Shown here in pieces: positions 7,601-57,660 of a stretch of 64,000 nt of DNA. The stretch covers positions 6,202,501 through 6,266,500 of the forward strand of contig OZ017801.1 in assembly GCA_963969395.1 (NCBI GenBank), in the 5' to 3' direction. Position 1 is the first letter of the stretch; every line of letters starts with the position of its first letter. This stretch comes from Pseudoscleropodium purum (lineage: Eukaryota; Streptophyta; Bryopsida; Hypnales; Brachytheciaceae). A program made the position numbers and the translations under genes. Under the pieces are notes generated by a model. The model did no database searches. It was given only the letters and a program-made list of their open reading frames with translations, and was not told the origin of the DNA.

Positions 7601-10236
7601 TTAGTAAACACACCAATTTTGAGTGCAAAGTTGCATAAGAGTTGTGAAATTATAACAAGGAAAATATACATTTTTTATTTTTAGTATGTTGCCCTTCCCT
7701 ATGATGTTTTAGAAATTTTCATATAAAAGTTTTTTGGGATCAGAAGTGACATGTATGAACAACTACAAATTGTGTTAGCACACTAAAATACACTTAAAAC
7801 TTAATTTCACATGAAAAGTTATTAAACTCTTTACACAATCCACCTTGCAATTGATGAGATGCAATTTATTTTATAAGTACGTATAAATCACATATAACTC
7901 CAAATCAACACTTGTTTGTTTAAATTTTCGATGGTGAAAATCATAAAAACACTTTACTTCTTTCCATTCGGATTACAAAATCAAGTAAAATTGCTCAAAG
8001 TTGGGTAATGAAGTAAAATTAGCAAATTGTACTCTTCCTCTAATGAACATATATGGTTTTGGAGACCTTTCAACAATCAAATAAGTACTTTTTTCCAATG
8101 AAAACGAAAGTTTTCAATAGTTAACCCTAAAAATTGCTTGACATTTTTTTTTAAACAATCAAACAAATTTAATTGCCCATACCAAAATGAGCCATATATT
8201 TGACCATATATGGCCAATTGGGTTAAAGCACTCTCCTTCAAATCCACAAGACTTCTTGAAGTTCTCTTTTCCAACCACTCAAGCCTAAGTTGTATCTTTA
8301 GCTCTACCACAATTTTCATCTTTCATCCTCTGTTCTTTTTAAAGGATCATAGCAAATAGTATATACAAACTTAGACTTTGTTCATTATGAACACTTGTGA
8401 AGCCTTTCCAAGAATCTAGTAAGCTATTCAAGAAGGCATTTGTCTTATCTCCTTCAAAAACAACTTCACATTTTTTCTAACTTCTTATATAATTGCGTAT
8501 TTAATTTGGTATCACAACAAAATTATTGTAATTAAATGGAGTCTATTTGAGATCACAATTGAGATTGGGCAAGCTCCTCTACAACACCAAATTGCTTCCT
8601 TTCTTTCAAATCCCTTCATCAACATCCTACAACAAACTCATTCACCTGCCTTATACTTCTCATGAAGCCTAAAAATCTATTGCAATTGTAGACTGCATAT
8701 TGGCGCTCAAACATTTGTTTCTATTGGAAAAGAGACCCGACATTGTCTACTTTGTCTACAAGGAATACAATTGAACAGTCTTGACTTTCTCATGTTTGTA
8801 TCCAGTTTTCCACTAGGGGAGGCGACCTATTTCCACCACCAATTTAAGCAATTACAGGTATATGGAGTGCACATATCTAGACATATATAGAGATAGAGTT
8901 TGGAAGGATATAGAATTTTTCTAGAATTTGTTCACTCAAAATATAATTATTATGAATTTTTTAGGTGACCTGTACCATATGACCTCTTTTAGTCCTACAA
9001 CTTGTTCTAGTCATATAGACCTTTGTATTTCCAACCATGGATTGGTTGCAAAGTCAACTAAGGCTAATTACAATATTGAGAGCTTTGCAACCAAGCGTAT
9101 CGATTTATTTAAAGGTGAGCAATTAATTTACAAAAGTGGTAAACCTAGATAAATCAATATAACTTGAGAAGGATTGCAAATCTATTTACAAGTTAGAGTG
9201 ATGGACACCAAACCCTAAACTCTAAACCCTCAGTCACTTTTTGTAGTTCATAAGTATTTCTCAACAAAGATTTGGGTGGATAGATACCCCTTTATTGGAC
9301 GAATGTTCCATTTAAATATCTAAAAGCAATTTCATAGCCTATTGGTATTTTTCTTGGGCTATTTATACTTGCAAAAATTTGGTGGGTTTGACTTATGCAA
9401 TCACCATTTCTTAATAGTTTGGTTTTTTAAAAGGACTTTATGAATTTAAGATCTTAAAAATAGGCAAGTTTAACACTCACCATTAAGGGTCTATTAGTCC
9501 CTCCCTCCCGTCCTAATACATGTCTCTCCTTAGTTAAAAGAATATCAATATGTTTCTTTTCCAATTATTAGAAGATAATGGTACTAATTTTTGTAATTTA
9601 AACATCATTAAGTACCATAGCCATTTTTTAACCTTGGATGTGTGAAATCAAGAAGATGTACTATGGTTATATGGAATTCTCCTAATTTAATCATACCATG
9701 TGAAGTATAAATTAATTGTAACCATGTGGATGACAAGCTAGGTCTAGAAGCTTCGATTTGACTAGCCCTGCATGAATTCTCAACTTTGACATGTTTGAGT
9801 CTTTACATATTTGTACCATCCCATGTTGATGGGTGGTGATTATTATTGAAAAATTTATGGGTTATATTTGACCATGGGGATGTGAATCCATTAATTAAAA
9901 TGGCATTTTAGAACATGAGGATTTGACTTGATTATTTCCTTGAAATCCTAGGATTTAACTTGGTTCCCAAGGCATTCTTACTTGGTTGCCAAGGCAAAGA
10001 AAAACTATAAATACTTAGAGGAAACTTGTCTCCAACATCTTGCACCAACACTTAGTGAATGGTGATCTATGAGTTACAAAGGAGCTTTAGAAGTGACCTC
10101 AAGTATGAGGAGAAAGTTGGTGTCTCCAAGTTCATGACTATTTCTTTTGGGGTTACTAAACCATGTTGTTAGTAGGTTTTAGTAGATGGCATGAGCAATG
10201 ATTAGAAAGAAGTATTAAAAAGAATTTGGTGGCTCT

Positions 10237-32886: not shown

Positions 32887-33294
32887 CTTTAGGAATTGAG
32901 TTGGCTACCTTGTCTAGTGACTAGAGTAGGTGCATCTAGAAATATGTGATTTTGGGTGAGTTCAAGGATTTTTGTGTGTGCAATATACTCTGCTCTTCCT
33001 TTTGGTTATTGGGTGCACTTAAAGTGGAATGATTTGCAACGAATTGCTATGTATGTGAGAGATATTAAGAATTCAAATGGATGGATGCAAATTTGTGGAT
33101 GTTGAAATATGTGAGCACTGGGCATTAGTGGTCTTGCACCCTTTCACTATGTATCAGTGTTCTTCTTTCGAAGGGATTTCTATTGAAGAATCTATTGATG
33201 AATCAGGCTATCTAAGGGCTACAACGGAAGAGGATGCGTTGTGCCTAGTCCTGCAAGAGAGTCGAGGCATATTTTACCGGGTGGTGGCGGTAGT

Positions 33295-36200
33295 ATGTCC
33301 TTGAAAACTGCAAGAAGCACGACTGAAGCAATTGGTAATTTGAAGAACGGACTAGAACAAGGCATGGCCATTGACTCGTTTATGTATGTTGAAGTTTTGA
33401 GACGGTGCTTGAAGGAGGAAAACCTTAATGTTAATGTCGCGAAGCAGGTTCACGACTACATCAACCAGAGTGGAATGGAGCAGAATACATATGTGGCAAA
33501 CAACCTAGTGAGCGTGTATATCATGTGTGGAGAATTGGAGGATGCACGTGGAGTGTTTGATAAACTTGTGAACAAGAACGTGTTCAGTTGGACCATTATG
33601 ATTGGAGGTTATGCAAAGCACAATCATGCTGACAAAGCAATGGAACTTTTCAATCAAATGTGCCAAAAAGGGGTCCAGCCAAATGCATTTACTTTCTTGA
33701 GCATCCTGAAGGCATGTGCCGATCCATCAGCTTTGCAGTGGGGCAAAGAAGTTCATGCGTATGTAAGACATGCTGGGCTTGAATCAGATGTGCGTATGGG
33801 CAGTGCGCTTGTTCACATGTATGCAAATTGTGGCAGTATCGACGATGCCCGAGTAGTTTTTTGGCGAATGGAGGAACACGACGTGATCTCATGGAACATA
33901 ATGATCGGTGGACTTGCAAAGCATGGATTTGGGCAGGAGGCATATGGACTCCTTCTCCAAATGCAAAGAGAGGGCTGTGTACCAAACGTAACTACCTATG
34001 TGAGCATTCTGAATCCATGTTCAAGCGCAGGTGCTTTGGAGTGGGTAAAGGAGGTTCACAGGCATGTCCTCAAAGCGGGACTTGAGTCGGATTTACGTGT
34101 GGGCAATGCGCTTGTCCACATGTATGGAAAGTGTGGCAGTTTGGTTGATGCTCGGCTAGTTTTTGACCGGATGGAGGATCGTGACGTAAACACATGGACC
34201 GTGATGATTGGTGGACTTGCACAACATGGGTGTGGGAGTGAAGCATGTGAACTGCTTGTCCAAATGAAACAGGAAGGTCTCGAACCGAATGCATTCACTT
34301 ATACGAGCATTCTGAATCCATGTTCAAGCGCAGGTGCTTTGGAGTGGGTGAAGGAGGTTCACAGGCATGTCCTCAAAGCGGGACTTGAGTCGGATTTGCG
34401 TGTGGGCACCGCGCTTGTCCATATGTATGGAAGGTGTGGCAGTTTGGTTGATGCTCGGCTAGTTTTTGACCGGATGGAGGATCGTGATGTGATCACGTGG
34501 ACCGTGATGATTGGTGGACTTGCCGAAGACGGATGTGGGCAAGAAGCATATGAACTGTTTATGCAAATGCAAAGGGAAGGCTTGAAGCCCGATGCATTCA
34601 CGTTTACGAGCATTCTGAATCCATGTTCAAGCGCAGGTGCTTTGGAGTGGGTGAAGGAGGTTCACAGGCATATCCTCAAAGCGGGACTTGAGTCGGATTT
34701 GCGTGTGGGCACCGCGCTTGTCCACATGTATGGAAAGTGTGGCCGTTTGGTTGATGCTCGGCTAGTTTTTGACCGGATGGAGGATCGTGACGTAAACACA
34801 TGGACCGTGATGATTGGTGGACTTGCACAACATGGGTGTGGGAGTGAAGCATGTGAACTGCTTGTCCAAATGAAACAGGAAGGCCTCGAACCGAATGCAT
34901 TCACTTATACGAGCATTCTGAATCCATGTTCAAGCGCAGGTGCTTTGGAGTGGGTGAAGGAGGTTCACAGGCATATCCTCAAAGCGGGATTTGAGTCGGA
35001 TTTGCGTGTGGGCAATGCGCTTGTCCACATGTATGGAAAGTGTGGCCGTTTGGTTGATGCTCGGCTAGTTTTTGACCGGATGGAGGATCGTGATGTGATC
35101 ACGTGGACCGTGATGATTGGTGGACTTGCCGAAGACGGATGTGGGCAAGAAGCATATGAACTGTTTATGCAAATGCAAAGGGAAGGCTTGAAACCCGATG
35201 CACTCACTTATACGAGCATTCTGAATCCACGTTCAAGCGCAGGTGCTTTGGAGTGGGTGAAGGAGGTTCACAGGCATGTCCTCAAAGCGGGACTTGAGTC
35301 GGATTTGCGTGTGGGCACTGCGCTTGTCCACATGTATGGAAAGTGTGGCCGTTTGGTTGATGCTCGGCTAGTTTTTGACCGGATGGAGGATCGTGACGTA
35401 ATCACATGGACCGGGATGATTGGTGGACTTGCAGAGCATGGATGTGGGCACGAAGCCCTGGAAGTGTTCAGAAATATGATTGCAGACGGTGTGAAGCCTG
35501 ATGTGATGTCCTTCGCTGCAGTGTTGTCGGCCTGTAGTCATGCTGGCCTTGTGGATGAGGGCCGCAGACTATTTTTGGCGATGACACAAGATTATGGCAT
35601 CGAATCTACTTTACTGCTTTGTACCTGCATGGTGGATGTTCTTGGCCGAGCAGGACACTTGGAGGAAGCAAAGCTCTTGATTGGCAACATGCCAGTGGAA
35701 CCAGATGGGGCAACTTGGGGAGCCTTGCTTGGTGCTTGTAGAACGTACGGTAATGTGGATTTGGGCAAACTTGCCGCTAATGAGCGTCTCAAGTTGGAAC
35801 CGATGGATGCTTCTGCATACGTGCTTCTCTCGAATATCTATGCTGCAGCTGGCAAGTGGGAGGAGGTGTTGTGGGTGCGCACTATAATGCAGGAGAGAGG
35901 TATACGCAAGGAGCCAGGGCGTAGCTGGATTGAAGTTGATAACAAGGTCCATGACTTCGTCGTAGGGGATACCTCTCACTCAGAAGCGAAGGAGATCTAT
36001 GCTGAGCTGAGGAGATTGAGTGAGAAAATTAAGGCCGAAGGGTACATTCCTGATACCCGGCTAGTGTTGCGGAACATTGAGGAGGAGGAGAAAGAACTTG
36101 CGCTTTGCTCCCATAGTGAGAAACTGGCTATTGCTTACGGACTCATGCGGACACCCCTTGGAGAGCCAATTCGAGTGTTCAAGAACCTTCGAGTGTGTTC

Positions 36201-36321
36201 AGACTGCCATACAGCAACCAAGTTTATCTCAAAAGTGAGTGAACGAGAGATTGTTGTGAGGGATGCTAATCGCTTTCACCACTTCCAAAATGGTGTGTGT
36301 TCTTGTGGTGATTATTGGTGA
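33295..36321 (+). CDS. PPR protein, PLS-E-DYW class (RNA editing factor)
   Basis: A single uninterrupted 1008-aa frame. The first in-frame ATG is at 33295; upstream codons reach a stop at 33199 without another ATG. It holds about 22 pentatricopeptide motifs in P-L-S order, then E and E+ motifs, a PG box (PGRSWIEV) and a DYW deaminase domain. The zinc and catalytic landmarks are intact: HSE at about residues 940-942, CSDCH at 968-972, and the terminal CGDYW. Such proteins bind organelle transcripts one base per motif and deaminate a specific cytidine to uridine. No organelle-targeting prediction could be run; the first 30 residues are hydroxyl- and basic-rich (MSLKTARSTTEAIG). The P-L-S repeats in the middle are nearly identical in DNA, showing recent internal expansion. 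The lack of introns is common for plant PPR genes. Confidence 0.93.
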   Translation: MSLKTARSTTEAIGNLKNGLEQGMAIDSFMYVEVLRRCLKEENLNVNVAKQVHDYINQSGMEQNTYVANNLVSVYIMCGELEDARGVFDKLVNKNVFSWTIMIGGYAKHNHADKAMELFNQMCQKGVQPNAFTFLSILKACADPSALQWGKEVHAYVRHAGLESDVRMGSALVHMYANCGSIDDARVVFWRMEEHDVISWNIMIGGLAKHGFGQEAYGLLLQMQREGCVPNVTTYVSILNPCSSAGALEWVKEVHRHVLKAGLESDLRVGNALVHMYGKCGSLVDARLVFDRMEDRDVNTWTVMIGGLAQHGCGSEACELLVQMKQEGLEPNAFTYTSILNPCSSAGALEWVKEVHRHVLKAGLESDLRVGTALVHMYGRCGSLVDARLVFDRMEDRDVITWTVMIGGLAEDGCGQEAYELFMQMQREGLKPDAFTFTSILNPCSSAGALEWVKEVHRHILKAGLESDLRVGTALVHMYGKCGRLVDARLVFDRMEDRDVNTWTVMIGGLAQHGCGSEACELLVQMKQEGLEPNAFTYTSILNPCSSAGALEWVKEVHRHILKAGFESDLRVGNALVHMYGKCGRLVDARLVFDRMEDRDVITWTVMIGGLAEDGCGQEAYELFMQMQREGLKPDALTYTSILNPRSSAGALEWVKEVHRHVLKAGLESDLRVGTALVHMYGKCGRLVDARLVFDRMEDRDVITWTGMIGGLAEHGCGHEALEVFRNMIADGVKPDVMSFAAVLSACSHAGLVDEGRRLFLAMTQDYGIESTLLLCTCMVDVLGRAGHLEEAKLLIGNMPVEPDGATWGALLGACRTYGNVDLGKLAANERLKLEPMDASAYVLLSNIYAAAGKWEEVLWVRTIMQERGIRKEPGRSWIEVDNKVHDFVVGDTSHSEAKEIYAELRRLSEKIKAEGYIPDTRLVLRNIEEEEKELALCSHSEKLAIAYGLMRTPLGEPIRVFKNLRVCSDCHTATKFISKVSEREIVVRDANRFHHFQNGVCSCGDYW
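34002..35440 (+). repeat. internal 303-bp PLS repeats in the PPR gene
   Basis: The phrase GAGCATTCTGAATCCA recurs at 34002, 34305, 34608, 34911 and 35214, an exact 303-bp (101-codon) period with almost no drift. Units alternate between two P-motif versions, LAQHGCGSEACELLVQMKQ and LAEDGCGQEAYELFMQMQR, giving a 606-bp super-unit present twice (34002-34607 and 34608-35213). Confidence 0.93.
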
Positions 36322-38948: not shown

Positions 38949-38956
38949 GTAGTGAA
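38949..38956. repeat. left 8-bp target-site duplication (gtagtgaa)
   Basis: Identical to 48887-48894 on the other side of the element. Eight base pairs is the TSD length of hAT transposons. Confidence 0.9.
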
Positions 38957-39130
38957 CAGGGTTGACACGACGTCCGGACGCGGACGCTGTGTCCACAGCG
39001 TCCGCTGACATTCGCGGTCCCCGCGGACGCAGCGTCTGCCGGGACTGCCCCGTCCGCCTGTCACCCCGTCCGCCCCGTCCACTTTGACGGCCCTATTTCC
39101 CCCGACCGCCCTACCCAAACTGCCCCGCGG
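38957..39130. repeat. left subterminal CGTCCGC array with hairpin
   Basis: A GC-rich block in AT-rich surroundings, full of CGTCCGC and GCGGACG words. It includes a perfect 11-bp stem GCGGACGCTGT (38980-38990) and ACAGCGTCCGC (38995-39005) with a 4-base loop. Subterminal repeats of this kind are usual transposase-binding sites in hAT elements. The block is closely matched by the left end of the 57201 element. Confidence 0.8.
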
Positions 39131-39468
39131 TCACTCCCTTAATCTTTAAACAATTTAAAAGATTATAAAGTTTGACCATGAGTCCATGATAGTCTTGAAA
39201 CTATGAAAAAATTCCAATTCATTTTCAGAAGGCAAACTAAAAAAGTTTGTGACTTCAAATATATATATATACTATTTAAAAAATCGAGATCAACACAAAT
39301 ACAAACATAATCAATATGGACAAAATGTATTCAATTTAATGTAGAATACCATACATTGTGCACATTTGGCTAATTGCACATATAATTTTTTTCATTCCAA
39401 CTCTATATTTCTAAACTAATTTTTAATGCCTATATAACCTATTCAACTACTACTTCTGCACTACCAAT

Positions 39469-40961
39469 CTAATATAAATGGCGGAAATGTTCATCTGGCA
39501 TCGGCCAACGATATGTATTAGAAAATCGCGTAATCACATGGGCCAAACTAGTATTTTCATCATCAGTCTTCGAAGAAATGCGCTTCAAGTAAGCATAAAA
39601 CACTTTTGCAAAGTCATGAAAGGCAAATTGTGTCGCACTAGGTGTTTTAAGTAGCACGTTGAAATACGCCTCTGACATGTTGTTTCCATTCATCCGCCGA
39701 GTAATTTTTCGAATGGCATACTCTTTCGACTTACGTGAATACATCGGAATGACTTCCACATCTGCACCTGCTTTATGCAAATATGCAATACGTGGATCCA
39801 CCCACCATCTCCTCTGCAAAGTTTGTTTCATCTCATTTACTGATGTAAATGTATACAAAGACTTCATTGGCTGAGAAGCTAAGGTGGTTATGCCCCAATC
39901 GCAAACTCCAATGTACACACGTGACTCATCCTCTGGAAAATGCAACAAGATGTTGTCCGGAGAAAGATCATTGTGCAAATGTCCAACAAGATGCACTGCA
40001 TACATTATATGCATAAACGCCCATATCAACTCCGTGCGCTTTTTCCGATATCGTCCTAAATGGTGAGCTTTTACAACCTCCTCTTCGGTTGGATTTGTAT
40101 ACATCAAACGGATTTGAATGTTGTCTGGAAAGTCCTTATCCATATTCAACATTTATCGAAGAGTTCCACCATTCCACCAATACGCATAACCTTCACACGT
40201 CGTTCCGTGCACCGCAGCAAACCGTATCACACCCGCGTGTGGAATTCGAATAGCCATTGATTTGTTTTGATGTTCTAACTTTGCAAGATCAGGTCAAGTT
40301 TGGTGGTGAATGGATTTCTTTGCCGCAAACTCCCAGTGAGGAAGTATTCCTGGACATCCTTCAATACGAACCTTTCGAATGTTGCATATCCACCTCTCAT
40401 CGTTCTATCATCAACAGCAATCACGTGTGCTATATTTGGAAGTGCTATGAGGTGCCGTCTGGTCCTTTCCGCTTCAGCAACTCCATCATTGTTTTTCCAC
40501 CAACCAATTGAACCAACTCGATTGTGCGTTTTGGCGAATGGAGCACATCGCCCCTTAAATAAGTCCGCTTTTAGAATCACTTCTTCAAACTGGGTGTCAT
40601 TGGGTCGATATTCCTTGCCATATTTAACCAAAATGACTTTGGAATTCCACAAAGCGTCATGAACCTTGTTCTCCAAACATTTGGTGAAGTACGTTTTATG
40701 CATTTTGTCATGCCACTTCGCCACATTCAATGCATCCAACAACATCTGTGTCATGTCTACCTTGAATTTAGACACGCACTCCTCTTGATATCTGATGTAC
40801 TTATTGTTTAAAGACAATGTTGTTTCCGATTCATAAAATTGAACGATGCGCTCAATCATGAATTTCTTGCATTCTTCCGAAGGACTTTGGCGAGCTACTT
40901 CCAAGTTCGATGGTCCCTCTCCATGTTTAAGCTTCGCAACCTTCTTCTTCCCCTTCGTCAT
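39469..40961 (-). pseudogene. protein-kinase-like cargo gene, broken
   Basis: Two frames together read as one protein of about 490 aa. The N-terminal frame (40961 to 40277) begins with a basic stretch MTKGKKKVAKLKHG and lacks a recognised domain. A one-base shift near 40290 leads into the second frame, which has an in-frame TAA at 40153-40155 and then runs to 39469. The second part has the catalytic-loop motif GHLHNDLSPDNILL, where HND replaces HRD, and CDWG, where DWG replaces DFG. These are atypical-kinase or Funk1-like wordings. Metal-binding N and D are kept, so the ancestor may have been active. It lies inside the hAT element, transcribed toward its left end, with a GC array about 190 bp upstream of its ATG. 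Substrate unknown. Confidence 0.7.
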
Positions 40962-41149
40962 CGTGACAAATGAAATTGATATAGATCAAATTTTTTAATT
41001 TGAAATTGAATTCACGCGCAAGTGTCCAAAAAATTGGCAACAAGAGGGCCCCAATAAACCACTCTTGCCTTGCCTCGGAAAGGAGCCAATGGAGGATGAA
41101 CCACCAAGCTCTCCGCTTCACCTTGCATTCACAAGGGGCAAAACAAAAG

Positions 41150-41727
41150 TGACAATGCGGACGGCCCGTCCGCCCCCATTGGACGGCCCTAAACCGTCCG
41201 CCCGATCGGACGGGCCGGGGGTGGCGGACGGATCGGCCGTCCGCCTCCCCGAAACCCTCGAGCCCCGTCTGCCCGATCGGACGGCCACGGGCGGACAAAT
41301 TTGGCGTCCGCCCGATCGGACGGTCCGGGGGGGCGGACGCATTGCCGTAACAGGGCGGTCAGGGCGGATGCTGAATCCGATGGACAGGGTGGACGGCGGA
41401 CATGTATCGGGGCGGACGGCGGATCCGACGGACAAGGCGGACGGGGGTCGGGGCGGACAGGGCGGACGGCGGACAGGTATTGGGGCAAACGGGGTCGGGG
41501 CGGACGAGGGTCTAGGCGGATGGGACGGACGAGTATGAGGGCGGACGGCGGATCCGACGGACAAGGCGGACGGGGGGCGGGGCGGACAGGGCGGACGGCG
41601 GACAGGTATTGGGGCAAACGGGGTCGGGGCGGACGAGGGTCTAGGCGGATGGGACGGACGAGTATGAGGGCGGACGGAGTCTGGGCGGATGGGGTGGACA
41701 AGTACGAGGGCGGACGGGGCGGTTTGA
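41150..41727. repeat. central CGTCCGC array with 129-bp tandem repeat
   Basis: Extremely GC-rich block of GGCGGACGG-type words. A 129-bp unit beginning GGATCCGACGGACAAGG at 41421 is repeated almost perfectly at 41550. It lies just upstream of the kinase-like gene and shares word content with the terminal arrays. The long open frames through it on both strands are compositional artefacts. Confidence 0.85.
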
Positions 41728-42064
41728 CCCTAAAGCGACCCTAAACCCATATTTTGCACGATAAACAGAGGTCTTCATGGCACTGTATAGTTCAACTAAC
41801 TTTTCATTCATTCAATGTAAAATTTGAAATTAAAAAAGGTAGCCTTCCTTTATGACCAAATTTATGAATTCTTGATAAATGATATTTTTGTACAAAGATA
41901 TGAGCTAAAATGTGCAAAAATTCACGAAAGGATTGCGACGTTTAATATATGTACCCAAATATTCACGTTGCATTGTGTATAAAGCAATTGTAAGAAGGTA
42001 GTTGAATAAAAATTCTACTATTAAATTGAATTAGTTGACGTCTAATCACTTAGTAAACCGCTAA

Positions 42065-42185
42065 ATGTCCAAGTCCTTGCAAGTGTGTTTTGGCTATCAA
42101 AAAAGAGCATGGACTTATAGTTATCCCCAATGAAGCAAATTGTTCTTTTTTCAAAATCTAATGGTGTAGATGTTTAGCCCCTAAA
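42065..42185. repeat. dispersed repeat, copy B
   Basis: Same orientation as, and clearly related to, 7480-7600. Its presence shows the spacer contains host-type repeated DNA. Confidence 0.6.
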
Positions 42186-42582
42186 GTTCTTTTCACTAAA
42201 AACACTTCAAAACTGCCAGTAGTAGTGCAAATACCAAGTCTTGGAAGAAAAATACTTTTGGGCATATGTAACCATAGGATCTTGTAGTAAATTAGTTGGA
42301 AAAGATGTGGAAAAAATTTTAGACAAATCCACCATTTGGATTGTAAGATATTAGATATTGAGTGTTTCATTTAAAGGGGCTATTCAATTATGTCTATTAA
42401 TGAACAATTGGTAGGCTAACAAACCTAACTTAGCATGTATTTTAATATTTGTTGCAATTGTTTTAGGAATATTATAACATAATACTATTATAATATTCTT
42501 ATAAATGATATAACACTAAATCATTTCAAAATCAACAACATTTGAATACAATCTATCAATCTTGTCTTCCATACTCCTTTAA

Positions 42583-42584
<2 letters not shown>

Positions 42585-42617
<33 letters not shown>
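42585..42617. repeat. (AT)n microsatellite
   Basis: Pure AT dinucleotide run of about 16 units. Confidence 0.95.
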
Positions 42618-42624
<7 letters not shown>

Positions 42625-44529
42625 TTAGATAAATCAACATAAACAAATCAATGATTATATATTTCATAGATCTATTCTTCATCAATCAAATAAGAGTGCA
42701 TGTTCATATATAGACAAAGATGGTTTCTCCATTTGTTCCCAAAAATTAAATAAACAAATAGAGAAAGATATGAAGTGAATGTTACTTGGAGAATTGAAAG
42801 AAAAGAAATTGAAGTACTCAATTGCATTTTATTAAATTGGAAAATTGCATGTGGATGGCATGAATTAATCTTCATAGATGCTAAACTCATACGAGTTGCA
42901 TTTCAACATTTATGATTTATGCAATTGATTGAATTGAAAGCTCTTGTAATTACATTTTCAAATTTTCGATTCAATCATTCAAATTTGCAAGAGTGATTTA
43001 TGATAGATTTATAACTTTAAATGTGAAAGGATTCAATGCCTTTATGCGTTTGTTCATCAATATATTAATTTTAAATAAATAATATATATTTTTTATAACA
43101 TATGCATAAACCATTGCATTAAAAAAAACAAAAACTAAGAGCCAAGCCAAATAGGCTGGTCAAATGAAGAGAACAAGAGAACAAGAGCCCTACGAGAAAG
43201 CAAAGGAAAAAAAAAAATATCAAAAGGATTCAAAGGAAGGAGCAAGATGCATTCTTGCAAGACCGTAGAATACATAATGTGATAATGATTTCAAAATCCA
43301 AACACAAATATATTTTCTATTTCAATGAGAGTCAAAAATGAACTCCCCTGCTCTCAAAGATTGTACAATGTACACGTTATACAAAACGAACATATAACAG
43401 AAAGAGTAGAAGACATTGTTTATCATGATTGAAAACTAAAATGATTTTTTCTTTCTATGTAGAATATTTTATGAAATGTAACAATGTATTTAATTATCAT
43501 AGTAATTGGTAGAAATCTTTGTGCAATACATAGAAACATTTCATTCATGTGGAATTTTTTCATTTATTTAGGATTAAAATTGAAGTATTATACTCTATAA
43601 AGTACAAACCGAAAACAATATCATATACCTAAGTTCAAAAGTTTGCAATTGTTTCGTGAATTCATTTTGAAAACTCAAACAAAGAAATATTTTATAATCA
43701 ATATCTTGTTCATTTGAATCATTTCAAAATTCGAATTCCGAATTCAATTCCTATTTATAATAGAAATTATGTTTGTCAATTTTTTAGATCTTTAAACAAT
43801 GAACCCTCTTTTTTTTTAAATTAATATTTAAAAACATCTAAAATAAGAATATTGGAATTACCCTTCAAAATAAATATAGCACATGTATAAGTGTATAATA
43901 TATTCTACTCAATCAACTCAAGTAACGAATTTTTCTATGTTTTGAAAGAAAAATATAGCCATATATGATTTGAAAGTTAAAACATTGATTATTTTTCTTT
44001 GTTTTCAAATCTAATCAAAATTTCATTAAAAAATATGAAAGACTCGATGTTCATTTGAAGATCGTGATGCACTTCTAAATAGAAAACACAACCTTTCATT
44101 AAATATCATGAGGTTGAAATCCATTAAACTGTTATTCTAATTATGTATTGGGGCCTTTTTTTAAAATTTCATTTGCTTATGATGAAAAAGGAATTGATTA
44201 TTTCTGCAAAACATTTGATTTCCTAATGAACTTTAAAAAAATTCCCACCATCTTCAGATCTTCTCAAAACCTATTTAGAAGGATAATATGAGTAAATAAT
44301 CCAAACATATTCAACTTAACCACATTCCCCTCATTCGTAAAACAATTTAGGGGAGAAAAGAAAAGGTTTAGGGTAATTAGGGTATAGGATTTAGGGTTTA
44401 CATTTTTTTTTTTAAAAATGATAAATCAATTACATGGATCCTCATTTAGCAATGATTATTAGGCTGTTTTTTTTGGAAATGTTACCACTCTTTTTGAGTA
44501 ATATTGACCTTTTAGGATGCTCCAATGGA

Positions 44530-44745
44530 CAGCTAGGCGGACGCCGTCGGCGGTCAGTGTTTAAGTGGGGCGGTTGGCGTGTCCAAAGCGCGGACGGCGT
44601 TGGAAGGCGGACAGTGCGGACAGTCCCGTCTGACCGCCCCGTCCGACTGCCGCGTCCGACAGCCCGTCCGACCCGTCTGGCCTGTCCGCTCGACCGCCCC
44701 GTCTGTCCACCCTGTCCGCTTCAGTCCCGTCCGGGCCGTTTCTTG
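44530..44745. repeat. second internal CGTCCGC array
   Basis: GC-rich block with CGGACGGCG, CCGTCCGAC and GTCCGCC words, about 300 bp upstream of the transposase start. It shares word content with the other three arrays. It may be a promoter with transposase-binding sites, or a former element end. Confidence 0.75.
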
Positions 44746-45048
44746 TTTTTGAATGGAAACCCTAAAAATGAACTTTTAATTTTCTGGAGGGGACTATAAA
44801 TGTTAGAAGAGAAGCTTTGGTATTCACTCTCGAAAAACCGAACGCTAAGATTTCCAAGGGCTATGAGCTTCAATTTATTGAGTCTCTTGTTTGGTAATGC
44901 ATAATTCGGTGGACGGGGGGGCTTTGATTTTCAAAGCTTTGTGTGACTAATTTCATTGATATTGTATACATTGTCACGTTGTGGGTTTCAAATTGAAAAC
45001 ATTTTATTGGTTTCTTTTGAAATTGAGGTAAAACATACACTTGTCAGT

Positions 45049-48000
45049 ATGGTGGCTAAACCGACGGGGGATTTTTCTCCTTGGTTTAGTGTGCAAGAGG
45101 GTGGTAAAGTAAAATATAGGCTTTGCAAAGCGAGCATGTCAAGGAAGCTCAGCTGTATGTTCAGCCACTTAGGCTATTCTGGGCCTGAAGGTGTACGTGA
45201 TAAAGGGGTGAGCTTTTGTCCACGATTATCAATGGCAGTTCGAGATTTATTTCGGCATTGCGAAGGAGTTTTTCCAAAACGCGTTGTAATGGACAATGTG
45301 GATGGCAACCCTGGCCCTTCAGATGTTCAAGAGTTTTCGGCCAGAAAGGCTGTATCGCATTCTGACTACAAAGATTCTTGTCCAGCGTCCAAAGAATTGG
45401 TATCAATGGTATGTGCCACAACTGAAATGACTTTGAGTACGAAAGCTTCTGGTGAACGTGAAACCCCGAGGGCATCAAGTTCTAGGCCTCAGAGGCAAGG
45501 CAGCTTAGTGAGTGGGTTTGAAGAAGGTCATAGACGCAAATTACATTCAGTGTAGGCAAATTTTTTTTATTCGGCGAACATACCATTTTTCGTGGCTCGA
45601 AATCTAGCTTTTAAAGAAGCAGCGAAGAAAACGGCTACGTTTGGTAGGCCATACATTCCTCCCTCATACCACGACCTTCGGTACAAATTGTTGAATGAGG
45701 CGAAGACCAACATTCAGACACAGTTGAATGCACGAACTGAAGATAGCATTCGAAAATTTGGACCAACATTGTCCATTGATGGATGGAGCTTCGTGACTAA
45801 TCGACCTCTCATCAATGCTATGCTTGTATCATCCGCAGGTGAAGAATTTCTTGGATCTGTGGATACAAGTGGTTGTGAAAAAAATGCGGAGTACTTGGGA
45901 GCTGTGTTGGAAAAGTTCATTGAACAAGTGGGGTCCAAGAACGTCATGTTAATAACTACGGATAATGCTCCCATAAATCCGTCCGCATGGGATGTAATAT
46001 CTACAAAATATCCTCATATTTTTTACCAAGGGTGCGTGGTACATGCATTGAATTTGTTGTTGAAGGATTGGGCTGCACAGAAATGAATTGCTTCCAAATT
46101 GGATAAAGGAGTTCTTGTAGCTAAATTTATCAGGAAGAGACATATGCCGCTAGTTCTATTGCGAAAGTATTCGCCAAATCTTGGTCTCTTAATGCCTGGG
46201 GATACAAGGTTCGCCTCTAAATTTATCATGATGGAGCGTTTGACAAAATTGAGAGGAGCATTGGAACAAACGGTGGTAGATCCACAATGGGTTGAACATG
46301 TACATGCTCTCAAGAAGAAACGTAGAGCTAAATCCAACCAAAAGACTTAGCCATAGCGGTGAAGAAAATTGTTCTTGATGACCATTTTTGGAATCGGTCC
46401 ATCAATTATGTGGAGATGGTTGAACCAATCATATGTGCACTCCGCGATTTGGATTCAAAATCACCATGCATGGGGAAGGTGTTGCATATCATGAGGAAAT
46501 TAGAGAAGCACGTAAACGGATTACAAAGTCCACCATTTTGTTTACTAGAAGAATTTGCAACTCCATTGGTACAGTCTTTTTATGCCCGAAGAAGAATGGT
46601 GGACAACGATCTCCAATCAGCCGCAGCTCTTTTGAATCCATACCTTCTTCATGACAAAGAGCTAGCGGATGACGCAGATGCAATGTCAGGATGTAAAAAA
46701 GTTTTGGAGAGAATATGTAAACCGGATGAATATGCAACAGTGGTGAAGGAATTTGTAGCTTTTCGACACAAGGAACCTCCATTCCACAATATGTTGAATC
46801 CGGGAGATCAAATGTTGTCCGCACATGCTTGGTGGGATTTTGAAGGTGCATGTGGCAAGTTTATAGCTCCATTAGCGAAGAGGATATTGGCTCAACTAGT
46901 GTCATCATCTTCATGTGAACGAAAGTGGAGCAACTATTCTTTTGTTCACAACAAATCTCGAAATGAATTGAAGCCGGAGAGAGGAGTGGATTTGGTGTAC
47001 GTGTATACCAATTCCAAAGTATTAAACGCATCAAAGGAAAAAGATGAAAAAAAATGGTATAATGATAATGTGGATCCGATAGAATCAGAGGATTCAGATA
47101 GGCCAACGTTAGAAGACGATGATGACGATGATGACGAGGATTTGGAAAGGGCCCTTTCAGCTGTAGATGGGTGAGATGACTTCAATCGTACGACAGCATG
47201 GGGAGATGAAGACGTTATGCAAGACTTTCCCGATTTGGTGAATGATACGCATGATTATCATCTAAACCGCAAGGATGTCGTTCCCGACAATGCAAACGAT
47301 GCATATACCTTTTGTGAAGACGAGGACAATGTAGGAGGAGAGGAGAATCTACCTTCTTTAGCTGCATATTGCAATGGAATGGGATTCTTGAATAGTGAAA
47401 ACATTCTATCGGAAAAGGCAAACGCTATTGCCAAAGAGGTGAAAATCAATGAGAATGCTATTGGTGATGATGGGAGAAATGAAGAAGTTTTAATTTCTCA
47501 ATCTCCATCTGTGGCATTAAATGTAGTGCAAGGAAACGACAAAAGAGAAGATGCGGTCATGGAGGTGGACATTTCAAAAGATGTGGGCAACAATAGTAGT
47601 GATGAGAGGGAACCAAATATTGCGGTACAAAAAAATAATGATTCACTTGGGATGGCAGTTACAAATTCGGCAATTATGAAGAGTGATAAAGGAAAGGAGC
47701 CAATGAAGTCAATTTTTGAAGTACCAAGATCTAGTGCTCTTCCACCAATACCGTTGAAGTCTGTTAGCACACGATTGAATGATTCTCAGAGCTTTGGATA
47801 TGGAAAACGCCTAATGAACATTTCCAAAGAAATTTCTACAGGCGGTAATCTACGGAAAGTAGCGTCATCACCTACAAGCCTAAGTGATACGGATAGTGAT
47901 CGGATGCCATTGGCATCTTTGCGTGCTCGCATTTTAGCAAAAGGAATGGCGCAAGAACCCATCAAATCAACAAACGGCACTCTATTACTTCAAAAGAAAG

Positions 48001-48413
48001 CCAAAGTGGAGATAACCATTCATAGACATGTCGACTCTACATTGAGATTGATGGTTCAAGAATCGAGTAACGTGAAAGCGAAAAGAGAAATGCAACCTTT
48101 TGCTATCTCTCCAGTGAAGAATAGGACCCCTCTTGATGAAAATGTTGCTACTTTGTCAAATAGAAAGAAAAGAAAGGTTCCTATTCAAAAAACCTTTAAT
48201 CGTTCTGTCAAAGTAAAAAAAGAAAAATTAAATTCGAAAGAAGGGAGTAAACCTACTTCGAGAGAAGACTTGAAGGAGACAACGATACTTGATTTCAACA
48301 ATGAAGATGACTCCGACAATGAAGATGACTCCGATAATGAAGATTTTGAACGGAGAGTTGCAGGAGAGAGTAGTAGGGCTGAGGTTAGAGGAGATGTGGA
48401 TTGGCGTCCATAA
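45049..48413 (+). pseudogene. hAT transposase, interrupted
   Basis: Starts at ATG 45049 (MVAKPTGDFSPWF). Domains in order: a degenerate BED-like N-terminus; a DUF659-type RNase-H core with FGPTLSIDGWSF, the catalytic-Asp motif ITTDNA, and GCVVHALNLLLKD containing the CxxH signature; the C-terminal insertion region; then the hATC dimerisation block HAWWDFEG and SSSSCERKWSNYSFVHNKSRN. An acidic, Lys-rich tail of about 400 aa follows (47175-48413), unusual for hAT transposases. Breaks: in-frame TAG at 45553-45555, TGA at 46084-46086, a one-base frameshift near 46340, and TGA at 47172-47174. Protein similarity continues across each break, so the copy was inactivated fairly recently. Introns are an alternative explanation but are not needed. 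Confidence 0.85.
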
Positions 48414-48764
48414 GAATTGTGGAGATGTGAATTTAGATGTTTGATTGTTTAGTTGCTCATGATATATGGAGCTCATGTTGACAAATGACAATGGTTTCTT
48501 CAATCATTTTATTATAAAATTGTTTGTTTATTGATGATATACATCTCGCTAGATTTTAAAGTGATTTTGTTTCTAAATCAAAATGAAATTCAACAAAAAA
48601 AATTAAAAATATATTTCATATTTTAGCTTTTACATAAATAGTGATATAGAACTCTATTGAATCGCAATTGCAATATAAGAAAAATCAAAATCAAAATGAC
48701 TTCACTCTCAATCTCTCATTGGTGAAAACAATCAAAACAAAAAACCCAAAACGGGTTTTCTAAG

Positions 48765-48886
48765 CCGCCCCGTCCGGCCACCCGGCCCCGCGCGTCCGCC
48801 TTCCGACGGTGGGAGGGACGCTACGTCCGCTAGTGTCCGGAAAACGGACGCTATTTTGGGGCGGACGTAGAGATTCGTCAACCCTG
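48765..48886. repeat. right subterminal CGTCCGC array and terminus
   Basis: GC-rich block ending GACGCTATTTTGGGGCGGACG, then ATTCGTCAACCCTG. The last 50 bp are nearly identical to the right end of the 57201-57495 element. Confidence 0.85.
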
Positions 48887-48894
48887 GTAGTGAA
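48887..48894. repeat. right 8-bp target-site duplication (gtagtgaa)
   Basis: Perfect copy of 38949-38956. Confidence 0.9.
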
Positions 48895-51499: not shown

Positions 51500-53060
51500 T
51501 GCCGGATCTATAAAGAAGTTCTTTTTTGCAAAGCTTCATACCCTTGTCACATGTATAGGGTCTTGAACTCGTTAGGTCTTCCGAGAGTTTATATCCATTT
51601 GAATAAAAGCATCTATCATGATTTGGTTGATTGAACAACATCTCCGATTAGTCAAGAGGTGTCAAAGACACCAATTGCAACAAATTCGGCCATTCAACTA
51701 GTTGCTAGTAAGGAATTTTTTATATTTGAATTGTTTGGAGAAGGACTACAAAGTGGCCGAAAGCCCCTCCATGGAGAAGCTCTTCAGGCTGTCATGGAGA
51801 AATTTAGGATACTCAATTCACCAAGTATTCAAAATACTATCTCTAGTTTTTGTCATAACACCAACGAGGGACCTATTAACAATATCATTTCATTGAAAAT
51901 GAAAAGTACATATTCCTTTATTCAAAATAGCATATTTTTAGGCTAAAGTAAGGATAAAGTTTACCTTTCCAAGATGTCTAAGGAAGGTCCAAGAAGCGGG
52001 ATAGATTTGGTGAGGCAAATGCAACTTGGTAGAGACTTGCAAAACTCTTGGTGCATGTTTAATCATGTAAAGAGGGTCAAGGGATGGACATCAATGGCTA
52101 CCCACGTCTATGACCCTGAGTTTTGTTGAGTCCTGACTATTTGTGTCTATGACATGATGAGTGAGGATGCTCAATCACAAGAACAAATGTGGAGATCCCT
52201 TAACTCTATCATGACACGACATGAGATTTCTTTTCCAAATTTCAAGGGATTCATGGTTGATAATGCAATGGCCAATTGGCATGCTATTCGTGTGGTATAT
52301 GGAAGTGGCAACAAAAAAGAGCGAATGCAAGATTGTGAACGCTCTTGTCTACTTCATTGGACAACTTCGTTGAACACACATATAGAGAAGCTTATTCAAC
52401 TGGAGTTCCAAGAAACTCACAAGAAACTTTGCAAACAATACAAGGATGCAAAGTCCATGGCAAAAGTAGAAGAGAGATACCTTGGAATCAAAGGTTGGTG
52501 GCTTTTTTCAAGGGTTATATCAGAGGATTCTCTTTGAGAATTAGATGATTGGTTAGGTTCTTGGCACTTTCGATACCGATAGTAGGGCGGATTTCTAGAA
52601 TTGGTAACTCATATGCTTCCTTGAATTTGAATTTTTGACTGTTCAACTTCTATTCATGAATAATTTGTTTTAGTGTCCAAAATGTATGTGGTTTCTATTT
52701 AACATCTATAGTTCTCAATATTGACACACGATTTTCAGACCAAAAGAAGCCTTACCACGTCACTTGAAATTATTGTTGGTGGTGTAGGACTTAAACTTGG
52801 AAGAACTAGCCAAAATGCCTTCATACAATTTAGCAGAGATAGTTCACAACAAGTGGTTGCAAATGCCTAGGAAGAGGGGAACTTGCTTATACGTTGCTAT
52901 TATAGATGACATAATGCGATTTATTCAACAATCAACTAATTACTGGGCATACCTCCAAGGGTATGCATCTAGCATTAGTCCCCATTTAGATGAACTTCGC
53001 CTTTGAGTTGCAAGACGAACCAAAAATCCAGCAAAGTTTATTGAGGCTGTCTCCAAACTA
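51500..53060 (+). pseudogene. decayed transposase-like gene
   Basis: A string of frames on the plus strand interrupted by stops. Segments include MATHVYDPEFC, NFKGFMVDNAMANWHAIRVVYGSG, and DCERSCLLHWTTSLNTH. These match my recollection of a family of repetitive plant proteins related to MULE or FAR1-type transposases (GFMADNAQANWNAVRIVYG... ERTCLFHWTQSL). Stops occur after EFC, after SEDSL and after DELRL. Flanking frames at 50640-51250 and 53142-53890 may be further pieces of it. Not functional as read. Confidence 0.5.
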
Positions 53061-55000
53061 CCAAATGCTCATCTATTTACTACAAGGATTCTCCACTTAG
53101 AAGGTAAAGAAGTATTTGGCTCCTCTAAGCATAAACTAAATTTGCCACTTGGATCAAAAAATGATTCTCACCACCATGATACTATAAACTTCTTTACACC
53201 TAGAGTTCAAATTTGGTCAACAAAAGCACGCACAAAAGCAGGAATATCAACACCAACACCAACACCAATATTGACACAAGAAGGAGAACTAAGCACAATG
53301 CATCTTCATGCTATGAAAGTACTTGAAACGAACTGCAACCTTTCTCTGTGGCACATTACTAGGTGTAAGAAGAAAAAAAAGACTTGTTATGGAATTCAAG
53401 TCAAGATGAAGAAGAAATGTGGAGCCAAGATAAATAAGTCGAGTAAGAATGGAATAGCAGCACCTACCTACAATGGTCGCATGACAAAATATGGAACCAA
53501 GATCATCATCAACTTTGATTTTTGGTTTTGTGCAATTGATCTTACGCATTGTACAAGAGGCTCCAAGATGAAGTGGGTTCACAATTAGCCTCTTCTTCCA
53601 AATGTGTGGCCTATTACTTGTGGAACACATCTCACTAAATCAGGGATCCTTTCTTTAGAGGAAGCAAGGTTTCAAATGCAAACTAAAGAGGTAGGCAAAC
53701 CAACACTCCACCTTTTTAATGAAGAAAGCATAGATAGAGAGGTGTCTTTCCTTCAACCAAAGCAACCAAACAACAATATGCAACCATCTAACAGTGATAT
53801 GCATCCCACAAAGCAATTGGGGAAGACCATCTTGCAGATCTCTAATATACCTACCGTTGACTACCGCAACAAATGGCAGACAACATGAAATTTAAAAGCT
53901 ATTATTGAATATGTGGTCATTATCCCATTCCCTAGCTATAGTAGAGTGATAACTCTAATGTCTAGTATCTTTCCCAACCAAAAGGTTTATTGAATCACAA
54001 TTTCAGACTTCCTTGCTTTTACTTGCGAAGACTTCATTACTATAAGTATAGCTACACTTGGTAGTAGAAAATCATGGGTGAATTGCAAGCATTTGTATTA
54101 TGTCTTTAGATTTATTTGCAAGGAAAACTTTGAAGATGACAAGTATATCTATGCACCACGTTTGAGCTTTGATGAAGTGAAGCTACTTCTTGTAGGTAGC
54201 AATCTATGAGATATTGTATATCCATTTTATAGTAGATAGTAAAACCACTTATATTTAGAAGTGGATACATATAGAATGGTCCATTGGAATGGTTGCCACA
54301 TTGATACCTTAAACTCTAATTACTTTAAGGTGGTCCAAATAGTTCATGGTCCCCTATAGACCACTCAAATCATTTGTAAAATTGTAAACATTAAATAAAT
54401 ACATATGAAATAATTGAATTTAGCCAAACAATAATGTAGGATGAAATGTTACAATTCTATGAATTGAAAGGACTCCACAATTTAGGGAAGCACTTAACTA
54501 CAAGCAAAGAACATTGTTCAGTGCAATTCATTATTACATATATCTACAAATGAACATTCAAGAAGCTCTTCAATTCAAAGGAGCATTAAACCAACCTCAA
54601 AATAGTTAACAAAGTTTTGAGGTCAACCATGAAAATTTTTATAATTTTTATAAATTATAATTTTTAAAAAAATTAAAAATTAAAAATCACTCTTTTGTTT
54701 AGGACATATTTAGCAATGTGCAATGAAAGTCTTTTTTGAATGGATGATGGATGGATGATGGATGGATGTAGTTCATTCCTACATCAAATCTATGGTTGTA
54801 AAATAAAAAAATTTTAAATAATAATCATTCATTAATACCCATTTATATAACATTTGATTCTAAAATTGATTATTTTTAATAAAACTTTTGTAAGTTTTTC
54901 TGTAAGTTTTTTTTAAAATTTTTGACATTATTATATTTAGGTCTGAAAACCCTATTTATTACTTTGATATGTCTATTTTTAATAAAAATCCTTGCAATGA
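53060..55000. other. decayed and AT-rich DNA, no intact gene
   Basis: The first 800 bp may be the 3' part of the preceding decayed gene. The rest has no recognisable content except a (GATG)n-type run at 54741-54769. Confidence 0.45.
54741..54769. repeat. (GATGGATG)n microsatellite
   Basis: Imperfect ATGGATG run read directly. Confidence 0.85.
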
Positions 55001-55099: not shown

Positions 55100-57660
55100 G
55101 CTTCAATACTTCTTAGAAGTATCTCCGAACTTCTTTGATGCCGATCGTCTCGAAGTTTGTGTCAACAGTCCCTTCGATCATCTCGTTCAAAAAAGACACC
55201 GCATCATGGACATTTTGCATTCTTCTCCATGTGTTGTGTAGTTGGGAGTGCCATAGAACGTGCTTCACAACAACACCAACTCCGTCCCACTCTCCCTTCC
55301 CTTGACTAGTTCCAAAAAAATTCCAATTCATAGTACAACCATTTGTCAAGGTGGGATATCTGGCCACAAAATAAAATGGTCAAGAACCCTTGAATTGACC
55401 CACACAACCATCAAACCACACTTAGTGGTGCTTTGGTCAAATCCTTATACAACAATATATGTACAAAAATAAATACACTTTGTATCATTTTTCAATTCAG
55501 TATAGAATCAATACATTTACAAAATCAATACATTTGGAGCAATGTCAATTTATACCTTCAAAATCTAGCCATTGCCAATGTTGCATCAAGCAATGCTGTA
55601 CAAAAAAAGAATAGTGGACTGTGTCATCAATAATGTAGAAATGAGACTCTTTCACCATCATTCCATCTAGTTTAAACTGATACGTAATGTAGACAAGAAT
55701 ACTAATTTGTGTAGAGCACCAATACATGCTCTAGATCTGGTTTTGAATCTCAAAAGTATAGTTCTTGGCAAAATCAATATGTAATAAAATCACATCTTTG
55801 CCCAAGAACTATATGGAACGCTTGCATTGGTCATCCTACCACCTAGCAACGAAGTTGTACTTTACAAACTAGGGTAGTTAGACTTGAAATATTCAAAAAA
55901 CACTTTTGGAAAAGTCTCTTTGTATGCCTTGATGATCCTCTTTCGAGGCTTCCCTTCTCATATGGTACCAATTATTTCATTCTCAAAGCATTTCCAAGTG
56001 ACAGTTGAAGTCATTGATAACTCAAAAGGGCGAATCTTAAGCTTTGAAATACCACAATTAGAGCACAGATCCACGATGCACTATAGTGCATGCCATTTTT
56101 CATTCTCCAACTCAGGGCAAACAATTTCTTGCTACAAAGTTGTTGTATCCGCAAACATCTACAAATGTGCCTTACACTTTGCCTCTTCTTCTTCTAGTCG
56201 AAAGAGACACATATCACACAAGCATTGGCAATTCTCTGAAAAACATATGCCCTTTGCGCCATCCTGAATCCGATTGAACCCCTCCCTCAACATGTCAATC
56301 TCCACGTGGTATCTACAATAACAAATGTTCTGCTTGTTGCACGCTTTAACAAAGTAAGGCTTCAGTTTCTTAAACGCTCTCTGTTTGATTGTCACATCTG
56401 GATGCACCTCTATAAACTGATGGTAGAATGCAACCTACATGAATGCAAAAATTAATAAGAATGTACTCCACGCGTAGTTTTTGTACATAATGTATAGAAA
56501 GTAGTACCAAGACTATTGTAATGAGCATATTGCAATACACAACAAGAGCATTTCTATCTACAATCAGAGTCATACCTGACTTTTTAGTAAGTAGTGGGTG
56601 AAGTGTTTGTCATATGTATTTGGACTCGTCCATTTCTATACAATTTCTTTTTTGTTCAAGCTGACACGAGTCTCTTCCGTCCACCACTTTGTAACAAGGT
56701 CCTTCGTTTCGACAAGCAACCCTGGCCTCTTTTTTCATTTTGCAAGTACAAAAGGTTTTGCAAGCAAACGCACAGTATTGTGGAGTATTATAGCCACCTT
56801 CAAATTGGTTGGGTGAACTTTAAAAACCCGTAACAAAGCTACGGTGTTAGTCACACTAGTAGAGATAGCAATGTCTAAAAGTACAACCTTTCTAGCTAAC
56901 ATGTTTGTTAATTGAACACCCTTCACATAGTCCAACTCTAATCAATAATTTCTGAGAAATTCAAATTGAACTTTGACAATGTCTCCACTAGGATAATATT
57001 CGGGAAGAAATGGAGAAATGCGTTCATCCTCCAAGAAACACTCTATAATCTTCAGCCTAGAAGATGCTCGCGCACAACCTTGCATCTTTAAAATGAAGAA
57101 ATCTACAATTTTAGACAAAATAAACGATTGCTCCTGTAGAGACATCTCCCTTCCTACCTCCAATTCGTCATCATGCACAAAAAACAAGCAAGTTGCTACT
57201 CAAGGTTGACATGACGTCCGAACGCGGACGCTGTGTCCGCAGTGTCCGTTGACATTCGCGTCCCGGCGGACGCAGCGTCCGCCTGTCTCCCGTCCGCCTA
57301 TCCGCCCGTCCGCCCGATTACGGCCGTCCAATCGACGCGCGGACTAATCTAGTCCGCACGATCTAGGTGTCCGCCCCGCCCCGCCCGTCCGCTTTCCGAC
57401 GGCGGTCGGGACGCTGCGTTCGCTAGCATCCGTGCGTCCGGACGTCCGGAAAACGGACGCTATTTTGGGGCGGACGTTGACATTCGTCAACCCTGCTGCT
57501 ACTTCTCTCTCCCTCACCAATTGATAGCATCGACATTGCCTCTCTACCTCTCCATCTCTCAAATACTCCCTCACCACATCATAATCCTCCGCCAAGGTTC
57601 CTTCTCTTGAATCTAGCACATCTATCTATAAATCTCTTCTTTGCCATTACAAACCATCAC
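55100..57660 (-). pseudogene. decayed transposon-type gene, minus strand, split by a MITE
   Basis: Minus-strand fragments in order: a basic start MAKKRFIDRCARFKRR near 57650, then LAEDYDVVREYLRDGEVERQ (frameshifted), the 57201-57495 MITE, then FVHDDELEVGREMSLQEQSF, a block with many Cys (NICYCRYHVEIDM, CQCLCDMC) near 56159-56407, and GTSQGKGEWDGVGVVVKH near 55280. The last resembles the HGKGE-x-DG-x-G segment of a widespread family of repetitive transposon-like proteins. Several stops break it. Removing the MITE and one TSD copy rejoins the frame across 57496/57200. Confidence 0.5.
57201..57495 (+). mobile_element. 295-bp non-autonomous hAT element (MITE)
   Basis: Ends are CAAGGTTGAC and GTCAACCCTG. 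The flanks ttgctact (57193-57200) and ctgctact (57496-57503) form an 8-bp TSD with one mismatch. The left 100 bp matches the left end of the 9.9-kb element (GACGTCCGAACGCGGACGCTG... against GACGTCCGGACGCGGACGCTG...), and the right 100 bp matches its right end. It contains only CGTCCGC-rich sequence, so it is a deletion derivative or parallel short member that depends on a transposase in trans. Confidence 0.88.

Follow-up and report, generated by a model that had tools for sequence, protein, structure and literature searches.

Cut-and-paste transposons usually need the transposase alone, and the question raised by a 9930-bp element in the moss Pseudoscleropodium purum is whether a protein kinase can belong to such a transposon as one of its own genes. 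The element lies within a 64,000-nucleotide stretch of contig OZ017801.1 (assembly GCA_963969395.1, positions 6,202,501 to 6,266,500 of the forward strand), hereafter the window, and contains a hAT transposase gene on the plus strand and a kinase-like gene on the minus strand, which are divergent and each point outward. Our analyses identify it as a member of a multicopy hAT family, whose unit consists of a transposase plus a divergent protein kinase and inserts whole with 8-bp duplications, and the kinase is almost certainly a resident core gene of this family, not a stray passenger. The preliminary description of the window had delimited the element by its ends and a perfect 8-bp target-site duplication and had placed the two genes divergently; bounds and arrangement were both recovered here (Table 1), but neither gene is intact in the window copy. 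The same description spoke of the kinase as cargo, a term that does not fit it, as it looks like a core gene.

The window unit is a hAT element by its domains, ends and duplication. Its 10-bp terminal inverted repeats are of the CAGGG type usual for hAT elements (CAGGGTTGAC/GTCAACCCTG), and the exactly repeated octamer GTAGTGAA that flanks them occurs three times in the window, at the two element flanks and at 59914. The transposase matched the Pfam families DUF659 with 102.5 bits (cut-off 34.7) and Dimer_Tnp_hAT with 31.7 bits (cut-off 21.4), and its reading frame is interrupted by a TAG at 45553, TGA codons at 46084 and 47172 and a frameshift near 46340. No Pfam match, to a BED-type zinc finger or otherwise, appeared in the N-terminal reading frame of this broken copy; conserved acidic residues, putative members of a catalytic triad, are visible in the transposase alignment. 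The pairing of the two ends is above chance, because a 295-bp copy elsewhere in the window joins the same two distinct termini (left end 86% over 119 bp, right end 96% over 52 bp) and because 11 of 18 genomic copies have exact 8-bp duplications of their own.

Those genomic copies were sought in the 313-Mb assembly of 52 contigs that contains the window, where the candidate numbers of all searches are first looks and not copy counts. The left end gave 2241 candidates; 40 of them, window copy included, were scored, and all matched. The 20 best of the other 39 were followed 10 kb inward, a sample biased to the copies most like the window element. The kinase was present in all 20, at 510–590 bp from the end, and the right half of 15 held transposase sequence, judged by the protein marker TPC, by DNA matches and by a further marker, TPN, whose translation is out of frame: it tags transposase DNA, given that copies are ~95% alike, but its percentages do not measure protein identity. 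TPN also served for the transposase in the loci described below. The right end could be read in 18 of these copies (all save L024 and L027), and besides the 11 with exact duplications, L015 showed one of 7/8. Moreover, L021 is inserted within a copy of kinase+RING type, the sister form described below, and once one duplication is removed, its flanks agree with the uninterrupted L020 apart from a single mismatch within the duplication; since L020 is a paralogous empty site for L021, one insertion is confirmed. The earlier proposal that the 9.9 kb moves as a unit together with the kinase thus stands on the kinase at all 20 left ends examined and on these duplications. The left flank of L027 is transposase sequence of another element. 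As a separate observation, L024 contains short stretches with both family ends inside the element, at ~1971–2540 and 8472–8774, one of which interrupts the kinase gene.

The linkage was also apparent from the two genes. A search of the genome with the kinase protein returned 2273 candidates, of which 86 were scored and all 86 matched, 33 without an in-frame stop. A sample of every fourth row as far as row 77 (20 of the 86) had left-end sequence within 600 bp in all 20 copies, which places the end 481–594 bp past the kinase stop; 13 of these matches begin at base 1 of the left end, one at base 2 and six at base 13, 47 or 110, and for these six the distances are extrapolated. Hence the prospect raised in the preliminary description, of a kinase residing mainly outside these elements, found no example among the 20 sampled copies (of 86 scored and 2273 candidates). 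A 280-amino-acid piece of the transposase gave 882 candidates, and all 138 scored were matches. A transposase place lay within 12 kb of 28 of the 86 kinase places, always in divergent orientation (28/28) and in 26 cases at 5.0–5.6 kb. Sampling the transposase places in turn (every seventh row from row 2, n = 20) recovered the kinase in the expected 1.1 kb at 16.

The window kinase gene retains HNDLSPDN and DWG motifs and a sub-threshold match to Pfam Pkinase (21.2 bits for the window piece and 24 bits for the protein P0001, cut-off 31.7). Seventy relatives were present in the protein collection, the best being 499 amino acids long with 67% identity, and those of near full length from other sources range from 39 to 67% identity. 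Two entries carry the name Ceratodon purpureus, and one of these is a cluster comprising 126 sequences. Among 26 aligned relatives, 25 matched Pkinase at E ≤ 0.01 (best 1.2e-10), and Gly192, Lys217, Glu236, Asp334, Asn339 and Asp357 are unchanged in all, while His332 is kept in 25 and Gly359 in 24; in this family HND replaces HRD and DWG replaces DFG. The AlphaFold model of P0001 comprises a helical N-terminal part followed by a protein-kinase fold from about residue 171, which Foldseek and VIA matched to many kinases at tied scores, so that no closer kinase family is assignable. None of the 21 genome copies compared has lost the catalytic Asp, the Asn or the DWG Asp. At other positions, L013 has an altered Lys, L010, L023 and the window copy an altered helix-C Glu, and L016 and L026 an altered His. 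The case for kinase function rests on the long open relatives from other sources, because these keep the catalytic residues unchanged. The element kinase is predicted, with good probability, to be catalytically active. One further relative, P0002 (66% identical), is filed under a metagenome-assembled genome of Bacilli on a 2919-bp contig and is probably plant DNA binned in error; relatives sought in viral and prokaryote contigs yielded none confirmed among 20, 17 and 19 pattern stretches. The status of the kinase as a core gene follows from the left ends that all hold it, the duplications, the left ends beside sampled kinases, the 16 of 20 transposase copies and the open relatives with their catalytic residues and modelled fold.

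The preliminary description had also allowed for kinase-side ends joined to other partners, and this is in part what the genome contains. Five of the 20 left-end copies (L015, L020, L024, L027 and L028; L027 on ~130 bp only) have a different right half, in which the transposase is replaced by a gene of ~1130 codons with a RING-H2-like finger and Pfam matches around the cut-offs, encoding a RING-finger/coiled-coil protein; the right terminus, read in three of them (L020, L015 and L028), is there the same as in the kinase+transposase form. Six relatives of the RING protein are present in the protein collection, one 71% identical over the full length and another 95% over 71% of it, and the RING gene gave 842 candidates in the genome, 85 of which were scored, all of them matches. 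In ten cases a kinase place has a divergent RING partner at 7.5–11 kb, and another pair within 15 kb lacks the divergent arrangement. The three genes also occur together. At C40:40400200-40416500 (L077/L078), kinase, RING (a 1137-amino-acid open frame) and transposase stand in series, and between the latter two lie an internal sequence resembling a right end and array C for a second time; the outer ends of this locus fall outside the stretch read. At G000:C44:11292095-11309074, a 16980-bp unit read in part, a left end and a right end, flanked by GCAAGCAC and ACAAGCAC (alike at 7/8), enclose portions of kinase, RING and transposase. In addition, two RING relatives and two transposase relatives sit on contigs of equal size (17649 and 7321), which suggests, from the sizes only, that the two genes are neighbours elsewhere. 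Several RING and transposase places form opposite-strand pairs with identical scores, some 8–70 kb apart (for example G000:C49:701705/732720, C1:12223568/12240768 and C40:20618363/20641072), as if the elements lay in large inverted duplications or the assembly folded back on itself.

The explanation that we favour, and hold to be moderately probable, is that of a family unit with a kinase and with sister RING forms, in which the kinase would be an element-encoded accessory enzyme, retained by selection as raising transposition. Both divergent genes would be expressed, and the kinase would act in trans, most likely by phosphorylating either the transposase of the element, with its long acidic tail as candidate substrate, or a host factor of silencing or repair. 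We consider action on a host factor a tentative proposal and action on the transposase a slightly more doubtful one. The RING protein, for its part, may direct ubiquitination to these targets or to others, and the kinase+RING elements would be mobilised by the transposase of their sisters, since both ends are common to the two forms.

Two other accounts of the kinase have to be weighed against this explanation. It might be a captured host gene, a passive Pack-hAT-like cargo amplified only since the capturing copy became active. The copies in the genome are indeed ~94–97% alike to one of their number and drift without clear codon constraint, and a hAT-named element that moves a foreign gene is known (ToxhAT, in the available part of PMC12506042); yet near full-length relatives at 39–67% identity, two of them from Ceratodon purpureus, that keep the main catalytic residues would be hard to obtain without selection, and both the Ceratodon cluster of 126 sequences and the 33 stop-free copies among the 86 scored also argue against passive cargo, which we regard as improbable. 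Alternatively, a kinase element and a transposase element might have become adjacent by accident, or the unit might be a chance composite, as could be imagined from GTCCG-rich arrays that are internal as well as terminal and from the other right half in some copies. Here the pairing of a kinase-side with a transposase-side end in the short copy at 57201, the exact duplications in 11 of 18 copies and the single divergent arrangement of all 28 kinase-transposase pairs leave so little room that this account is extremely improbable; on the paired termini of the short copy and the duplications around whole units, side-by-side and nested elements are both rejected.

A further proposal concerns the origin of the forms and adds to the favoured explanation without competing with it. 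A three-gene parent may have given rise to the kinase+transposase elements by recombination of two internal arrays and to the kinase+RING elements by use of an internal right end. It would agree with the twice-present array C and the internal right-end-like sequence of L077/L078, with the 17-kb unit and its 7/8 flanks and with the RING and transposase relatives on equal-sized contigs. Nevertheless, only two such loci were seen, the internal right end could equally well have come from a kinase+RING element fused to one of kinase+transposase type, and the shared contigs are deduced from size only, so that we put this origin forward tentatively. A more far-reaching scheme, which appears unlikely at present, would make the family a hAT lineage with its own phosphorylation and ubiquitination module, in which kinase, RING and transposase of a 17-kb unit have split into complementary kinase+transposase and kinase+RING elements with common ends; the module would then govern the transposase or switch off host silencing.

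Several observations weigh against the favoured explanation. The window kinase is broken and has a Lys in place of the helix-C Glu, and six of the 18 copies (L010, L013, L016 with 5/8 letters alike, L017, L020 and L028) are without matching flanks, for which recombination between copies may be a cause. In four of the 20 sampled transposase copies (L064, L066, L072 and L076) the stretch where a kinase is expected does not contain it. Scoring was confined to the top candidates (86 of 2273 for the kinase, 138 of 882 for the transposase), so that intact copies are favoured and a host gene that had diverged would be overlooked. Not one of the 70 kinase relatives is on a contig of the same size as the transposase or RING relatives, so that linkage in other species is unsupported by that route. 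Finally, differences among the 21 kinase copies are spread almost evenly over the three codon positions (0.055/0.041/0.051), and synonymous changes are not clearly more frequent in shared than in private variants (Fisher p 0.35); because of both, the copies have to be seen as mostly drifted since insertion, and they give no direct test of selection. The corresponding comparison for the transposase, whose copies are ~95% alike, gave a Fisher p of 0.79, with 4 of 17 copies left out of the codon counts for coverage below 90%.

The remaining features of the element are collected in Table 1. The GTCCG-rich arrays at its ends and before both genes may be putative transposase-binding sites that also regulate the genes, which we offer as an idea only. 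The AT-rich spacer was considered as a private insertion of the window copy and rejected, as other copies carry it. Outside the element, the window contains at 33202–36318 an open gene for a 1039-amino-acid PPR-DYW editing-factor-like protein with nearly identical internal repeats, and at 52130–53885 degenerate reading frames, three of which were tested and had no Pfam match above cut-off.

Table 1. Positions in the window of the hAT element, its parts and a short relative
Feature	Position	Strand	Remarks
hAT element type A (kinase + transposase)	38957..48886	.	9930 bp; ends, target-site duplication, other copies
Left target-site duplication GTAGTGAA	38949..38956	.	sequence comparison of flanks
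Left terminal inverted repeat CAGGGTTGAC, 10 bp	38957..38966	+	
Left subterminal GTCCG-rich array	38957..39106	.	40/40 scored genomic places match left end
Protein-kinase gene, ~497 codons	39469..40961	-	one frameshift and one TAA in window copy
Internal GTCCG-rich array, upstream of kinase	41140..41740	.	coverage differs among copies
AT-rich non-coding spacer	41745..44500	.	86-100% covered in other copies
Second internal GTCCG-rich array, upstream of transposase	44520..44745	.	type-B copies diverge from type A at ~44627
hAT transposase gene (DUF659, Dimer_Tnp_hAT, ~400-aa tail)	45049..48413	+	three stops, one frameshift in window copy
Right subterminal GTCCG-rich region	48760..48886	.	
Right terminal inverted repeat GTCAACCCTG, 10 bp	48877..48886	-	
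Right target-site duplication GTAGTGAA	48887..48894	.	sequence comparison of flanks
Non-autonomous copy, 295 bp, both family ends	57201..57495	.	flanks TTGCTACT/CTGCTACT, 7/8

The kinase, catalytically complete in appearance and kept copy after copy, and the RING gene of the sister form suggest an element that bears the cost of enzymes directed at its own machinery or at the host, and the family offers a direct way to study how a plant DNA transposon controls silencing or its own activity. In addition, counts of plant kinases could be misled by the element, through which its kinase gene has reached many copies.

The preliminary description had regarded a DNA transposon with a resident kinase as a candidate undescribed type. 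As a general statement this does not hold, since fungal IS3EU DNA transposons carry alpha-kinase and TET/JBP genes, as far as the available part of PMC12730594 describes them; for hAT elements it may, in that no hAT or plant transposon with a kinase gene was found in the open-licence literature searched (Repbase being outside that scope). IS3EU, according to the same part of that source, likewise joins a kinase gene and a transposase in opposite orientations in one DNA transposon, but it belongs to another superfamily, with a 6-bp duplication, an alpha-kinase and fungal hosts, whereas ours is a plant hAT family with 8-bp duplications and a classical protein-kinase fold; the 6-bp duplication and IS3EU transposase that define the former are replaced in the window element by 8-bp duplications and hAT domains. 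The TET/JBP-bearing hAT7 of Puccinia, again from the accessible portion of PMC12730594, is similar as a hAT with an added enzyme gene, and differs in its 7-bp duplications and in encoding a dioxygenase rather than a kinase. Sola1 of Ectocarpus, in what is available of PMC12477816, also has its accessory enzyme gene on the strand opposite to the transposase, though it is a Sola-superfamily element of a brown alga with a methyltransferase. ToxhAT resembles our family as a large hAT-named element mobilising a non-transposase gene, but moves an effector gene between fungi and is not mentioned there as having a kinase (PMC12506042, available part). With the Ac/Ds-type hAT superfamily the elements described here share the DUF659 and hAT dimerisation domains, the 8-bp duplications, the short CAGGG-type ends and the small non-autonomous copies, from which they depart by having two to three genes, a length of 9.5–17 kb and a kinase in a fixed divergent position.
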